Part shown: piece by piece, positions 17,435 to 23,528 of the stretch | How the letters are laid out: each line of letters starts with the position of its first letter | Position numbering within the stretch: position 1 is the stretch's first letter | The notes under the pieces: generated by a model | Databases searched by the model: none | Told to the model about the DNA's origin: nothing | What the model saw: the letters and a program-made list of their open reading frames with translations, nothing else | Translations under genes and position numbers: made by a program | NCBI RefSeq assembly: GCF_025211055.1 | Contig: NZ_JAOARO010000086.1 | Location: forward strand, 1 to 64,000 | DNA from: Vallitalea sp. | GTDB lineage: Bacteria; Bacillota; Clostridia; Lachnospirales; Vallitaleaceae | Direction of reading: 5' to 3' | DNA: 64,000 nt

Positions 17435-18763
17435 ATGTTTACCAATATTGAATTGAAGAACTATAAATCTTTAGTAGATATTAATGTTAATTTTACTGAC
17501 TCAAAAAAACAACCTAAAAAATTAGTTCTTTTATATGGTGAAAATGGTGGGGGTAAGTCAAATTTAGTCTCTGCATTTAGCACCTTGATTGATATGATAA
17601 AAACATTAGAAGTAAGAGAGTTTATAGCTAGTGTAGTTGAAGAAATGAATGAGGAAGTTAATATTGAAAGGATAAAACTTCTTCAAAAGCTTAGAAATAA
17701 TTATAGAGATTTAGAAACAATTATACAACAAACACATACATGTAATTCTGAGGAGAACATGGTATTGAAGTATAGTTTTAATATTGATGGAAAAGAAGGG
17801 TATTATTATATTGAAACGGATAATGATTCAATAGTTAAGGAAGAGTTATATTATGTTATAAATAAGAATAAAGGATATCATTTTCAAATAACTAAAGATA
17901 AATCTATACTTAATCCTAATATCTTCAAAAATAAGATATATAATGAAGAACTCTATGATAAAATAGAAAAATTTTGGGGAAAGCATACTTTTCTATCAAT
18001 TATTAATTATGAGTTAGTAGAGAAAAATAAGAGTTATGTCCATGAAAGATTATCACCAAGATTTCTAGAGGTATTCAAATTTTTTAGTAACTTTTGTTTT
18101 AGAGTTAATGAGGGTACTACTAATATAAGAATAAGAAGCGGTATCGAATATAATGTATTAGATGAGCTTCTTGAAGGACAAATATCTAGTACTAAAGAAT
18201 ATTTATTAAAGATATCTGAACGTTTTCTAAATCAATTTTTTACTCAATTATATGCTGATATTAAGAATGTATATTATGTGAAAAAGAAAGATGAAGAGAA
18301 TATTAAATATGATCTATGGTGTAAGAAATTAATTGGTAATAAAATACGAGATATTAAATTTAGAAATGAATCAACAGGAACATTGCAATTATTAGAATTA
18401 ATTCCGCTAATATTAGCTTCAATTGGTGGAAATGTAGCAATTATTGATGAGTTCGATACAGGTATTCATGATTTATTAGTTACTAATATTGTAACTGCTT
18501 TAAATGATTCTATTGATGGACAATTAATAATGACAACACATAATACTTTACTAATGGAAAATCAAATTCCGAAAGATTCATTATATTTTATTGTTACGGA
18601 TTCAGATGGAAATAAGGAAATTCCTTGTTTGACTGATTATGAGAGAAGAACTTATCCTAGAAATAATATTCGAGATTTATATCTAAAAGGTATGTATGAG
18701 GGGATACCTTCTATGATGGATATAGATTTTGAGGATATCTTAGAAACTATGAAAGATAATTAA
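17435..18763 (+). CDS. AAA ATPase, RloA/AbiLi-like (candidate defence gene)
   Basis: A 442-residue ABC/SMC-superfamily ATPase of the AAA_15/AAA_21 type. Walker A is GENGGGKS (35-42). The signature NESTGTLQLLELIPLIL (about 310-326), Walker B NVAIIDEFDTG and switch histidine MTTHNT follow in order. The short insertion between them lacks a coiled coil or zinc hook. The C-terminal stretch YPRNNIRDLYLKGMYEGIP resembles the ends of RloA-type defence ATPases that work with a small TOPRIM-like partner. Such a partner starts 18 bases after the stop. GGAGG is spaced eight bases from the ATG. Lower G+C than surrounding genes fits an acquired module. The role in phage defence is inference. Confidence 0.75.
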   Translation: MFTNIELKNYKSLVDINVNFTDSKKQPKKLVLLYGENGGGKSNLVSAFSTLIDMIKTLEVREFIASVVEEMNEEVNIERIKLLQKLRNNYRDLETIIQQTHTCNSEENMVLKYSFNIDGKEGYYYIETDNDSIVKEELYYVINKNKGYHFQITKDKSILNPNIFKNKIYNEELYDKIEKFWGKHTFLSIINYELVEKNKSYVHERLSPRFLEVFKFFSNFCFRVNEGTTNIRIRSGIEYNVLDELLEGQISSTKEYLLKISERFLNQFFTQLYADIKNVYYVKKKDEENIKYDLWCKKLIGNKIRDIKFRNESTGTLQLLELIPLILASIGGNVAIIDEFDTGIHDLLVTNIVTALNDSIDGQLIMTTHNTLLMENQIPKDSLYFIVTDSDGNKEIPCLTDYERRTYPRNNIRDLYLKGMYEGIPSMMDIDFEDILETMKDN

Positions 18764-18781
18764 TTTTTTGGGGGAATACTA

Positions 18782-19387
18782 ATGAGAAAGTTATCATATA
18801 CAAAAGCTGTAATAATCTGTCACGGAAAATCAGAAGTTCAAATATGTAAATATATTAAACAAAATTTACGATTAAGTATTGAAATTAGTGCTAGGAAAAA
18901 TGGTAGTTTACCAATTCAAATTAATAGTTTAAAAAGTTATCTTAATAATGATGTTTATAAAAATCTAGATTCGTTTATAAATAAGTTTTCTAAGGTTAAT
19001 ATTGTAGGAGAGGGTAAAAATCAAAAGATTGAGAATTTCAAATTTTTTATTATAATGGATACTGATGATTGTACCAAGGAACAAAGAGAAGCCTATAGTA
19101 GCAAAGAAATGTTTAAAGATCATTGGGCTTATGAATATATAGTTCCCATTTATAATATCACTAATTTAGAAGACGTACTTAAAAATTGCTCAATTAAGTG
19201 TACAAAAAATACTAAGAATAAGACCAGTACATATATTCGAGTTTTCCCAACTGATCCCAAATATACACATTCTAATGATAGAGTTCAATTAACCGATTTT
19301 AGGAATAAGATTGAAAAATGCAAGTATTCTAATATGGATATCTTAATTGATTATTGTTTAAAATGCAAACCTAATAACAAAAATTAA
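18782..19387 (+). CDS. Small TOPRIM-like partner protein (RloB/AbiLii-like)
   Basis: A 201-residue protein paired with the upstream ATPase. Near the N terminus KAVIICHGKSEVQICKYI resembles TOPRIM/RloB motif 1 (IVCEGKxTE), with His at the usual Glu and a Glu three residues later. FKFFIIMDTDDC (about residues 80-92) supplies the DxD motif. The rest (HWAYEYIVPIYNITNLEDVL and YIRVFPTD) looks family-specific and I cannot assign it further. TOPRIM domains in such pairs usually cut nucleic acid once the ATPase is triggered. No clear ribosome binding site beyond GGGGGAA. A terminator overlaps the stop. Confidence 0.7.
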   Translation: MRKLSYTKAVIICHGKSEVQICKYIKQNLRLSIEISARKNGSLPIQINSLKSYLNNDVYKNLDSFINKFSKVNIVGEGKNQKIENFKFFIIMDTDDCTKEQREAYSSKEMFKDHWAYEYIVPIYNITNLEDVLKNCSIKCTKNTKNKTSTYIRVFPTDPKYTHSNDRVQLTDFRNKIEKCKYSNMDILIDYCLKCKPNNKN

Positions 19388-19604: not shown

Positions 19605-20594
19605 TTATTGATATTTTTTCATTCTTATATCTGAACCAAAGATTTTAAGTGGTTCATAGTTACCAAATATACGTGATACAATTCTATCGGAGTATTGTTT
19701 TGACCAATCAGTTGGTGATAAGTTGGTGGATATCAATGTTGATTTCTTATTCAATAATCTTGTATTAAGGCAATTGAATAACTCAACTCCAGTAAAACGA
19801 TTATTAAATTCAGTTCCTAGGTCATCGATTATTAACAAATCGCAATCAAAAATAGACTCAATCTGTTCTTCGGGAACTTTTTCATCACCATTATTGAACT
19901 TATAATCCTCAAATAACTTGAAAAGTCCAAATGATGTTAAATAAATTACTGTATGAGAACTATCCAATAAAGCTTTTGCTATACAATTACATAAAAAAGT
20001 CTTCCCAAGACCAGCTTGTCCAAACAAAATGATATTTGTAAATTCACTATCAAAGTGATTAACGAATTTCTTACATTTTCCATATATTTTACGTATATTT
20101 TCTAATGGTGATAAGTTGAATCTTGAATCAATCTTATCTGAATAATAGTTAAAAGAAAATGTACTGAAATTTTCTTCTTCAATAATATTTTTAATATTAG
20201 ATTGTTCATAAGCAATATTAATCATGGCTTGTTTTAGGCAGATACATTTTTCATTACCGATATAACCTGTATCTTTACACAGATTGCAATCATATTTTGG
20301 TTGAAGATAATCTTCTGGATATCCATGATCTAGCAATAAACGTATTTTCTTTGAGGATAGAATGAAATTACTTTCTTGAAGTTCTTCAATCTTTTTTTCT
20401 GACTCATCTGGATGCTCAATAATATAATATGTAGTATTAACACTATTAGAAGCTATCTCATCATCTAAAACTTTTATAAGAGGTATTCTATTGTAGATTT
20501 CTTCTTTTCTTTTAGTAATTTCATGCTTGATACTAAGCTGTTTCTTATCGTAATTTTGCATGATTAACTTATATTGAGAACGTTTTAGATTCAT
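19605..20594 (-). CDS. dnaI: DnaI/DnaC-like helicase loader ATPase
   Basis: A 329-residue AAA+ protein of the DnaC/DnaI/IstB type that loads the replicative helicase. Four cysteines (103, 106, 117, 119 in CNLCKDTG...CICL) form the zinc-binding element known from DnaI. The ATPase core has Walker A GQAGLGKT (192-199), Walker B LLIIDDLGTE, sensor STNLSP and the arginine finger in DRIVSRIFG. It is second in an operon after the DnaD-like gene, the normal pairing for Firmicute primosome loading. AAAGGAAG precedes the ATG. Confidence 0.92.
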   Translation of the reverse strand: MNLKRSQYKLIMQNYDKKQLSIKHEITKRKEEIYNRIPLIKVLDDEIASNSVNTTYYIIEHPDESEKKIEELQESNFILSSKKIRLLLDHGYPEDYLQPKYDCNLCKDTGYIGNEKCICLKQAMINIAYEQSNIKNIIEEENFSTFSFNYYSDKIDSRFNLSPLENIRKIYGKCKKFVNHFDSEFTNIILFGQAGLGKTFLCNCIAKALLDSSHTVIYLTSFGLFKLFEDYKFNNGDEKVPEEQIESIFDCDLLIIDDLGTEFNNRFTGVELFNCLNTRLLNKKSTLISTNLSPTDWSKQYSDRIVSRIFGNYEPLKIFGSDIRMKKYQ

Positions 20595-20641: not shown

Positions 20642-21718
20642 TTAGTAGCTTCCGTCAGTTTCTTTAATGAGTAGTTCCATAGCTTTTTTCTCTAATTCAT
20701 CAAAATTATATGTACGTTGGTCATAATTAATGAACTTAGATTGATTTTTAGTACTGTCAGTTTTCTTAGTATTAGATTTTAAATGATGTTTTTCATCAAG
20801 CTCATTAACATTTTTAATGGTCTTTACGTTGTTCTTATGCCAGTTGTTAATTATAGCATCAATATAACTGAATTGAGGTTGATGGATTGTCTCCATTGTC
20901 CTATTACATGCTTCAATAATGATTTCTATAGAAAGATTATAATCATTTAACCATTTCTTCATATATGTAATTTGTTTTGGAGTAGGATTCCTATCACCAA
21001 TACCTAGGGATTTCATAATTTTAAAATAACTATTGTTAAAAGTCTCAATTCTATTTTCTGCTTTAGCAATTGTATTAATACCTTCATCTGCCCAGTTGAT
21101 GGCTACTTTTTCAATATAACTCATATTTCTATGGTTATTGGAAACACAGTACTCAATGAGAAGTTCAATAACTTCAAAAGGAAGTCCTAGCCAATCATTA
21201 AAACCGATTAGAGTGTTGATATCCTGTTGAGTCAACATTTTACCAAGATACTTTTGAGTTATGTAAATCAGTTGCTTATAATTTTGTCTACTCATAAAAG
21301 ATGTAATCTCATCAATTTTATATTGAGGTTTTGATGAGATATTGATTCTAGCATCTAACTGTTTTGTTGTAGCAGCAGTTTCTTTCTGTGTATCCACAAT
21401 GGCATCTACATTATCAATATTAGTAAGGTCATTTAATTTTATTGACCTAATAACTTTCTTATCATCATATTCAATTATCATGACATTAGTTGATTCCCAA
21501 TATCCTATAGCCCTCATGACATCTGTTTCAGTTAGATGAAGTTTATCAGCTACGTCTAACATTGATATTGATTGTATATTTTTTGATGCATATCTAATAA
21601 TCAATAAATACACTCTCACAAAATCTCCATTAGAGTTTGATAAGAATTTATCAATGAATTTATTTGGTATCAAGGTAAATTGATTAATATTTTGTGGATA
21701 AATAGTAATCATACTCAT
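20642..21718 (-). CDS. DnaD/DnaB-domain replication initiation protein
   Basis: A 358-residue protein with an N-terminal winged-helix region (about 1-100, TLIPNKFIDKF...VRVYLLIIRYA). Two DnaB_2/DnaD C-terminal-type domains follow (about 135-215 and 230-310), each with the characteristic Trp-centred end: VAINWADEGI and IINNWHKNNVKT. Proteins of this kind remodel DNA and recruit the DnaI-helicase complex. The loader gene follows after 47 bases. The upstream gap carries tandem DnaA boxes, so expression may respond to DnaA. Start ATG 21718 follows GGAAGGAAG. Confidence 0.88.
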   Translation of the reverse strand: MSMITIYPQNINQFTLIPNKFIDKFLSNSNGDFVRVYLLIIRYASKNIQSISMLDVADKLHLTETDVMRAIGYWESTNVMIIEYDDKKVIRSIKLNDLTNIDNVDAIVDTQKETAATTKQLDARINISSKPQYKIDEITSFMSRQNYKQLIYITQKYLGKMLTQQDINTLIGFNDWLGLPFEVIELLIEYCVSNNHRNMSYIEKVAINWADEGINTIAKAENRIETFNNSYFKIMKSLGIGDRNPTPKQITYMKKWLNDYNLSIEIIIEACNRTMETIHQPQFSYIDAIINNWHKNNVKTIKNVNELDEKHHLKSNTKKTDSTKNQSKFINYDQRTYNFDELEKKAMELLIKETDGSY

Positions 21719-21948
21719 AAAACAAATCTTCCTTCCGATAACATTTTATGTAAACTAAGCTATGGTTATTTAACTTAATTAGGCTCATTAATATATAAAT
21801 CGCTCTTAGTATAACATAAAAAATTATATTTGTGTGGTAAATAATGTTTTTAAAAAACTCTGAATAATATCAGAAAATTTACTGTTAAAATGTTGAAAGT
21901 GATAGTTTTTTAAACATTTGGAGTATATTGTTTAACAAAACATTAACA

Positions 21949-21984
21949 TTTACCTGTTGATAACTTTGTGGATAGTGTGGATAA
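21949..21984 (-). repeat. DnaA-box repeat, copy 1
   Basis: This 36-bp unit contains TGTGGATAG and TGTGGATAA head to tail (21967-21975 and 21976-21984). On the minus strand the second is the perfect DnaA box TTATCCACA; the first has one change. It matches copy 2 at 32 of 36 positions. Confidence 0.75.
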
Positions 21985-22112
21985 AGTTTTACATAACTTA
22001 TTAACATATGTTAAAATTCTATAACAATATCTAAAAATCAAGTGTTGAAAAAAATAATTTTCGAGTTACTAACAGATATTATGTAAACTATTTAGCCAGT
22101 AACTAACCACAG

Positions 22113-22148
22113 TTTCCCTGTTGACAACATTGTGGATAATGTGGATAA
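22113..22148 (-). repeat. DnaA-box repeat, copy 2
   Basis: The unit contains two perfect DnaA boxes head to tail (TGTGGATAA at 22131-22139 and 22140-22148, that is TTATCCACA on the minus strand). It ends at the base before the murC stop codon. With copy 1 it makes four boxes within 180 bases. Confidence 0.8.
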
Positions 22149-23528
22149 CTATCCCTTAATTAGTTCTTCCCCTATAATTCTCACGTCTCCTGCTCCCATA
22201 GTTATCAACAGGTCATTTGGATAACAATTCTGGAGTAAAAAAGTCTCTATTTCGTCAAAAGAAGAGAAATAAAAGGCTTGCTTTCCAAGTTTAGTAAGTT
22301 CAGACAATAAATCTTTGGAATGAATTTCGCCAGTATTTTTTTCTCTATCTGAATAAATATCTGTCAATATAATATTATCGGCGGAACTTAATGAATAGGC
22401 AAAGTTCTTCAAGAAAGCTTTTGTTCTTGAATAGGTATGTGGTTGAAAGACAACCCATAATTTGTTATGAGGGTATTTTGTTGCAGCTGAGAGTGTTGCT
22501 GATATCTCAGTTGGATGATGAGCGTAATCATCTATAACATTAACTCCCCTTATATTTCCTTTGTATTCAAATCTCCTGTTTGTTCCTGTGAAGTTCATTA
22601 GACCTTGTTTCATATCAATAATATCAACATCAAGGCAATTACTAGCAGCAATAGCAGCTAAGGAATTATAAACATTGTGTATACCGTTGACTTGTAAATT
22701 GATTTCTTCTATTTTTTTACCATTGTACATAAGGTCATATATTGGATAACCATACTCATTATATCGTATATTTTCAGCATAATAAGTATTATCATTACTT
22801 TTTCCGTAAGTAATGATATTACAATCTAGGTCAGATATTATTTCTTCATAATTATCAATATCTCCATTTATGATTAAATAACCATCATTTGGTAATTTAT
22901 CAGCAAAAGATTTGAAAGAATGTCTTATATGATTTATATCTTTAAAATAATCAAGGTGATCTTCTTCTATATTAAGTATAATAGAAATAAAAGGATTAAA
23001 CCTCAAAAAGCTATCACAGTATTCACAGGATTCGGTAACAAAATAGTCAGAATCACCTACACGAATATTTCCATCAATTACATTGAGTATACCACCTATT
23101 GATATAGTTGGATCTTTCTGTCCTTGAAGAAGGATATGGGATACCATTGATGTAGTTGTAGTTTTTCCATGAGTACCAGATACTGCAATTGGATACTTGT
23201 ATGTTTTCATAATCTGTCCAAGTAATTCAGCTCTACCTATTAATGGAATGCCTTTTTCCAGTGAAGTCATATATTCAATATTATCTTCTTTGACAGCTGC
23301 TGTATATATTACTAATTCAGTATCATCAGAAATATTGGAAGTTCTATGCCCTAAAAATACATTTATACCAAGGGCTTCTAGTTTTTTTGTTGTTTGAGTA
23401 GTTTTTATATCGGAACCAGTTATTTTAAAACCTTTTTGATGCAGAATTTCTGCTAAACCACTCATGCTTATGCCGCCAATTCCTATGAAATGAACATTTA
23501 ATGGCTTATTAAAATCAATTGTATACAT
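22149..23528 (-). CDS. murC: UDP-N-acetylmuramate--L-alanine ligase
   Basis: A 459-residue cytosolic Mur ligase that adds L-alanine to UDP-MurNAc, the first step of the peptidoglycan stem peptide. The Rossmann start HFIGIGGISMSGLAEIL, ATP loop GTHGKTTTT (118-126), NIEEDHLDYF and the C-terminal DDYAHHPTEI are all characteristic of MurC. Length is normal. GAGGAG lies before the ATG. It is first on the minus strand here; the DnaD-dnaI operon lies downstream in the same direction with a 430-base gap. Confidence 0.96.
   Translation of the reverse strand: MYTIDFNKPLNVHFIGIGGISMSGLAEILHQKGFKITGSDIKTTQTTKKLEALGINVFLGHRTSNISDDTELVIYTAAVKEDNIEYMTSLEKGIPLIGRAELLGQIMKTYKYPIAVSGTHGKTTTTSMVSHILLQGQKDPTISIGGILNVIDGNIRVGDSDYFVTESCEYCDSFLRFNPFISIILNIEEDHLDYFKDINHIRHSFKSFADKLPNDGYLIINGDIDNYEEIISDLDCNIITYGKSNDNTYYAENIRYNEYGYPIYDLMYNGKKIEEINLQVNGIHNVYNSLAAIAASNCLDVDIIDMKQGLMNFTGTNRRFEYKGNIRGVNVIDDYAHHPTEISATLSAATKYPHNKLWVVFQPHTYSRTKAFLKNFAYSLSSADNIILTDIYSDREKNTGEIHSKDLLSELTKLGKQAFYFSSFDEIETFLLQNCYPNDLLITMGAGDVRIIGEELIKG

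Follow-up and report, generated by a model that had tools for sequence, protein, structure and literature searches.

Contiguous DnaA boxes upstream of the dnaD-dnaI genes: a putative regulatory module kept across Lachnospirales

Genes and DnaA boxes of the murC-dnaD interval

The window (the whole stretch of DNA that was analysed, 64,000 nucleotides) is contig C53 of a 3.78-Mb draft genome belonging to Lachnospirales, an order of gut and sediment bacteria. Its named relatives according to DnaD, found by an alignment search of contigs, are Vallitalea and Vallitaleaceae MAGs. The DnaA protein of this genome is ordinary (TIGR00362). The murC gene, the dnaD-like gene and the dnaI/dnaC-like gene are all encoded on the minus strand. 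The features below are given in the direction of dnaD transcription.

22149..23528, minus strand: murC, same-strand upstream neighbour of dnaD (TIGR01082 above cut-off)
22140..22148, minus strand: unit 1, box 1, TTATCCACA, directly after the murC stop codon
22131..22139, minus strand: unit 1, box 2, TTATCCACA, zero spacer to box 1 (9-bp register)
22119..22127, minus strand: unit 1, box 3, TTGTCAACA, 3-bp spacer from box 2
22103..22111, plus strand: weak inverted box, reads TGTGGTTAG on the minus strand
22079..22088, minus strand: GTTTACATAA, copy 1, genus-conserved
21988..21996, minus strand: TTATGTAAA (reverse complement of TTTACATAA), resembling a weak box and placed 12 bp ahead of unit 2
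21976..21984, minus strand: unit 2, box 1, TTATCCACA
21967..21975, minus strand: unit 2, box 2, CTATCCACA (TTATCCACA in most of the genus)
21955..21963, minus strand: unit 2, box 3, TTATCAACA, 3-bp spacer from box 2
21808..21816, minus strand: predicted extended -10 of the dnaD promoter, TGTTATACT (comparative test, 58 of 71 loci)
21746..21755, minus strand: GTTTACATAA, copy 2, about 30 bp before the dnaD start codon
20642..21718, minus strand: dnaD-like primosomal gene, 358 aa, DnaB_2/DnaD domain (PF07261, E 2e-39; TIGR01446)
19605..20594, minus strand: dnaI/dnaC-like helicase-loader ATPase gene, 329 aa (PF01695; NF005304 above cut-off)

The initial annotation described two repeat units (21949-21984 and 22113-22148) that are 32/36 identical and offset by 164 bp, with four DnaA boxes, three of them perfect, in two head-to-tail pairs. 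Both figures are exact and the coordinates of the four boxes were confirmed. A third box per unit, 3 bp further on, had been overlooked, as had the weak box TTATGTAAA before unit 2 and the inverted weak box TGTGGTTAG. Read in the sense of dnaD, unit 1 (22119-22148) is TTATCCACA-TTATCCACA-atg-TTGTCAACA and unit 2 (21955-21984) is TTATCCACA-CTATCCACA-aag-TTATCAACA. In other genera, TTATACACC and TTATGTGCA are among the counterparts of TTATGTAAA. The DNA between the units, which had been called very AT-rich, is indeed richer in AT than the window (77.3% against 69.6%) but is only mildly unusual, because 8.6% of the segments of the same size are equally AT-rich. An Rfam scan of the box region gave no match and no intrinsic terminator was found in the murC-dnaD gap of the window.

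The GTTTACATAA-type sequence occurs three times upstream of dnaD (21746-21755, 22079-22088 and, inverted, 21988-21997) and is genus-conserved; it may represent a weak DnaA box or a site for another factor. Within the end of murC, AGTTATCAACAGG (22200-22212) is an exact inverted copy of CCTGTTGATAACT of unit 2; it codes for the DLLIT stretch of MurC, and an inverted TTATCAACA at this position is kept in many relatives. A perfect DnaA box is also found within the start of the dnaD coding sequence (21693-21701), where it encodes YPQ; most members of the genus retain it.

Conservation, linkage to dnaD and promoter-like element

The comparison includes 93 non-redundant dnaD loci of the order, obtained from relatives of the genome and by alignment search of contigs; these loci are not independent. 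Tandem: contiguous-box 18-mer with at most 3 mismatches of 18, within 900 bp upstream of dnaD. Such a tandem is found on the dnaD-sense strand in 71/93 loci and on the antisense strand in 0/93; shuffled sequences give 0.05 loci on average. Conservation of the repeat in relatives is a check that had been named in the initial annotation. With at most 1 mismatch, the count among the 93 loci is 52 sense versus 0 antisense. Two units are present in 52 of the 93. The tandem was found at none of 46 dnaD loci from other orders of the class (26 + 20; own-order genomes excluded). Searched genome-wide at ≤1 mismatch, it occurs in 97/146 genomes of the order, the reversed control pattern being nearly absent.

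Positions of the boxes are given as offsets from the start of each unit. In unit 1 (66 sequences), boxes are found at offset 0 in 62, at 9 in 65 and at 21 in 36, the last being counted at ≤2 mismatches; an inverted box is found at offset 48 in 32/66 and at offset 37 in 3/66. At offset 48, the inverted box of the relatives matches better than the weak inverted box of the window. In unit 2 (49 sequences), boxes are found at offset 0 in 47, at 9 in 48 and at 21 in 28, and 14 have a contiguous third box at 18. A regular triple box with an all-12-bp register was considered as an order-wide feature and rejected (2/56 genomes). From unit to unit, most loci have a spacing of 161-167 bp and the rest one of 87-156 bp; no mutual helical phase of the two units is obvious in these spacings. 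In six loci of the genus Vallitalea, no part of the murC-dnaD gap is more strongly conserved than the units.

The presence of the module varies with the distance between murC and dnaD: 65/68 loci with a gap of 130-900 bp carry it and 0/7 with a smaller gap. It stays at dnaD where murC is more than 1 kb away (L054, L110; 1.3 kb) or was undetected (L143, L147). Compared across these loci, the module is conserved together with the dnaD gene and not with a chromosomal place. In 51 loci of the order, unit 1 starts no more than about 15 nt from the murC stop codon. Two units are found in 46/51 of these versus 5/17 of the others, in which murC is distant or undetected (Fisher p 3e-6, phylogeny uncorrected).

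The region downstream of the last unit was searched for an extended -10 element (TGnTATAAT, ≤1 mismatch). Of 71 loci, 58 have it on the dnaD strand; shuffles give 11.4 ± 2.9 (at most 19), and the opposite strand gives 17. A simple sigma-70 scan gave no more sites than in shuffles, so that the prediction of a promoter rests on the comparative extended -10 test. Distances from unit 2 to the extended -10 that are below 100 bp cluster at about 46, 54-56, 65-66, 76, 86 and 95 bp; a test for a periodicity of about 10.5 bp gives p 0.0002-0.018, varying with the redundancy filter. Helical phasing of these distances is suggestive, the test being post hoc and made on a small sample from few independent lineages. 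The extended -10 of Vallitalea, about 150 bp from unit 2, lies beyond the phased range.

Box clusters elsewhere in the genome and upstream of hpf

The window contains 6 TTATNCACA where 5.1 are expected, which is an ordinary number; their clustering is not ordinary. A genome-wide box count, also called for in the initial annotation, gave 79 perfect DnaA boxes in 3.78 Mb. The largest cluster is oriC, with seven perfect boxes upstream of dnaA (C37:45671-45947) that use TTATCCACA. The dnaD array comes next, and the cluster after it has 3 boxes. The remaining clusters are near tdk, rplM or an ABC transporter gene, or lie within coding sequence; the two-unit layout is absent from all of them. The third-largest cluster, upstream of the thymidine kinase gene (L027:5025-5260, G000:C80), includes three perfect boxes plus TTATCCCCA and TTATCAACA. 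An inverted pair of perfect boxes is found upstream of the ribosomal protein L13 gene (L031:4662-4704, G000:C86).

At ≤1 mismatch, the tandem 18-mer has three sites in the genome: both dnaD units and one upstream of hpf, which encodes a ribosome hibernation factor.

L024:2408-2437 (G000:C61, about 126919): hpf-upstream box module of the window genome; hpf at L024:2637-3173

The hpf product is of the long form (TIGR00741, PF16321). The upstream site reads TTATTCACA-gag-TTATGCACA-TTATCCACA and has a 12/9 register, as has dnaD unit 2; this shared register argues that the module is a signature of a DnaA regulon. A tandem is found upstream of hpf in 14/30 loci of relatives (L249-L278), in the sense orientation only (antisense 0; shuffles 0). 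Twenty other tandem sites of the order were examined; among them, three are dnaD loci, six are upstream of hpf in the hpf sense and three adjoin dnaA.

Proposed role of the array and alternative readings

The array is retained throughout Lachnospirales and probably serves, when bound by DnaA, as a cis-regulatory module of the dnaD-dnaI promoter. This assignment is drawn from sequence comparison: the geometry and strand of the array, its conservation, its linkage to dnaD and to a promoter-like element, and the related hpf module. High-affinity-type DnaA boxes lie upstream of dnaD and a candidate promoter lies downstream of them on the gene strand, as expected of a DnaA-controlled promoter. Among the roles put forward in the initial annotation, regulation of primosome genes by DnaA is the one supported, by a conservation that is strand-fixed, dnaD-linked, promoter-linked and order-wide. 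DnaA is an established transcription factor (PMC8203912; PMC11317965).

DnaA occupancy, promoter use, the sign of regulation and its nucleotide dependence are predicted as follows. DnaA protomers would lie head to tail on each unit. The two strong contiguous boxes of a unit could be held by DnaA in either nucleotide state, and the weaker flanking boxes, in a 12-bp register, would be filled cooperatively at high levels of ATP-DnaA. Lying upstream of the extended -10 promoter, unit 2 would set the transcription of dnaD-dnaI; in this way, the loader genes would track initiator activity. Activation is the preferred sign, with a contact to RNA polymerase on one helix face. Unit 1 starts at the stop codon of murC; it would work together with unit 2 and might also stop read-through from murC. 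The retention of two units where unit 1 lies at the murC stop suggests that unit 1 additionally limits this read-through.

The closest known arrangement is that of the double boxes of the Escherichia coli DnaA regulon: nearly all targets need two close boxes, pairs are head to tail upstream of genes, and replication and nucleotide genes are among the targets (PMC11317965). The spacing of 3 bp between boxes 2 and 3, found (as offset 21) in about half of the loci, falls within the E. coli preference of 2-3 bp; the zero-spacer core pair departs from it, which counts against regulation by DnaA. In the Lachnospirales, moreover, most loci have two units about 163 bp apart, and the targets are dnaD-dnaI and hpf. 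In Caulobacter, the dnaB helicase gene is listed with predicted boxes, and dnaQ as well, in the DnaA regulon as given in PMC8203912; DnaA is likewise tied there to the transcription of a primosome gene, although gene, phylum and architecture differ.

A directional roadblock or insulator, in which DnaA at unit 1 stops transcription from murC and dnaD-dnaI is read only from its own promoter, is a somewhat unlikely full account; it may be part of the regulatory module and not an alternative to it. It would fit the start of unit 1 next to the murC stop, the excess of two units in such loci, the gap of the window without a detected intrinsic terminator and the fixed orientation, which suits a directional block; DnaA roadblocks in transcribed regions are cited in PMC11317965. 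However, it explains neither unit 2 nor the linkage to a promoter, and L143 and L147, in which murC was undetected, still have two units. Phylogeny also confounds the comparison: 6 of 12 single-unit, distant-murC loci (L155-L163) are from five Oribacterium and one Lachnospiraceae.

A site for DnaA titration or reactivation, of the B. subtilis DnaA-box-cluster, datA or DARS type, to which the neighbouring gene would be incidental, is improbable. The array is second only to oriC in cluster size, and six B. subtilis clusters outside oriC affect the timing of initiation according to PMC13220808; such clusters being also tied to titration, they count against a regulator. Like these Firmicute clusters (Okumura 2012, as summarized in the reviews PMC5295017 and PMC13220808), the array lies outside oriC; here, one operon is followed order-wide, with fixed orientation and varying distance to dnaA. 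Like E. coli datA and DARS, it is a dense non-origin cluster, but its chromosomal position varies and it is linked to a promoter. No conserved position of the datA or DARS kind was found, since dnaA and dnaD are as little as 45 kb apart in G011 and as much as 1.26 Mb apart in G046. This variation weakens a fixed-position form of the titration or DARS role proposed in the initial annotation, as does the orientation, which is fixed to dnaD. The module is, in addition, lost once the murC-dnaD gap closes and remains with dnaD when murC moves off. Titration may be a side effect of the module.

Recognition by another protein, the likeness to DnaA boxes being due to chance, is very improbable. The contiguous 9-bp register is unusual and the nearby conserved GTTTACATAA matches no nameable known site. 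Yet oriC of the same genome uses the same perfect consensus boxes, tandem 18-mers adjoin dnaA in other genomes of the order (L229, L230, L245), and the flanking boxes differ as DnaA-box variants do (TTATTAACA, TTATACACA, TTATGCACA).

A second unwinding site, also put forward in the initial annotation, or a replication origin at dnaD was rejected on GC skew and the lack of a DnaA-trio run, and can hardly be credited. The tandem pair beside AT-rich DNA does resemble half of the basal unwinding system of oriC (PMC8287927), here without a DnaA-trio run. In a complete genome of the genus (G004), however, the skew passes from -0.23 to +0.17 at dnaA; at dnaD, 270 kb away, it keeps a positive sign on either side. 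No DnaA-trio run was found after the dnaD boxes (best scores 2.5-6.5), against scores of 9 on the dnaA-dnaN side of several relatives, e.g. TACTACTATCATTACTATAAAAAA 13 nt after a box; these relatives are the positive control, oriC of Vallitalea itself having scored low. DnaA-trio runs on this side have been described for C. difficile oriC2 (PMC7561715). A canonical oriC is, besides, already present at dnaA.

Gene control by DnaA is known as such; what looks new is the double-unit module with its zero-spacer pairs, the linkage of this module to the loader operon throughout the order, and the counterpart at hpf. In the literature searched, DnaA boxes at dnaD-dnaI or hpf are not described for Lachnospirales; earlier reports of DnaA control of primosome genes in B. 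subtilis may exist. With its fixed geometry, the regulatory module offers a directly testable DnaA-dnaD circuit, and it bears on how Firmicutes without clear Hda/SeqA-type control tie the supply of helicase loader to the initiator. B. subtilis DnaD inhibits the cooperative binding of DnaA (Bonilla and Grossman 2012, cited in PMC4447404), so that a feedback loop would be closed by a circuit of this kind. The module at hpf hints that ribosome hibernation is connected with the control of replication, which was unexpected. A wider proposal, quite possible if tentative, is that DnaA of Lachnospirales is a dedicated transcription factor: contiguous arrays in a 9-bp register would control both the helicase-loader operon and hpf, and one protein would couple replication licensing to loader supply and translation shut-down. 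The 9-bp register poses the structural question of how adjacent DnaA domains IV fit on contiguous boxes.

On the other side of the operon, adjoining the dnaI gene, 17435-19387 holds two genes, one for an AAA_21 ATPase of 442 aa and, after it, one for a protein of 201 aa that has no Pfam match; this cassette looks like an OLD/Abi-type defence pair.
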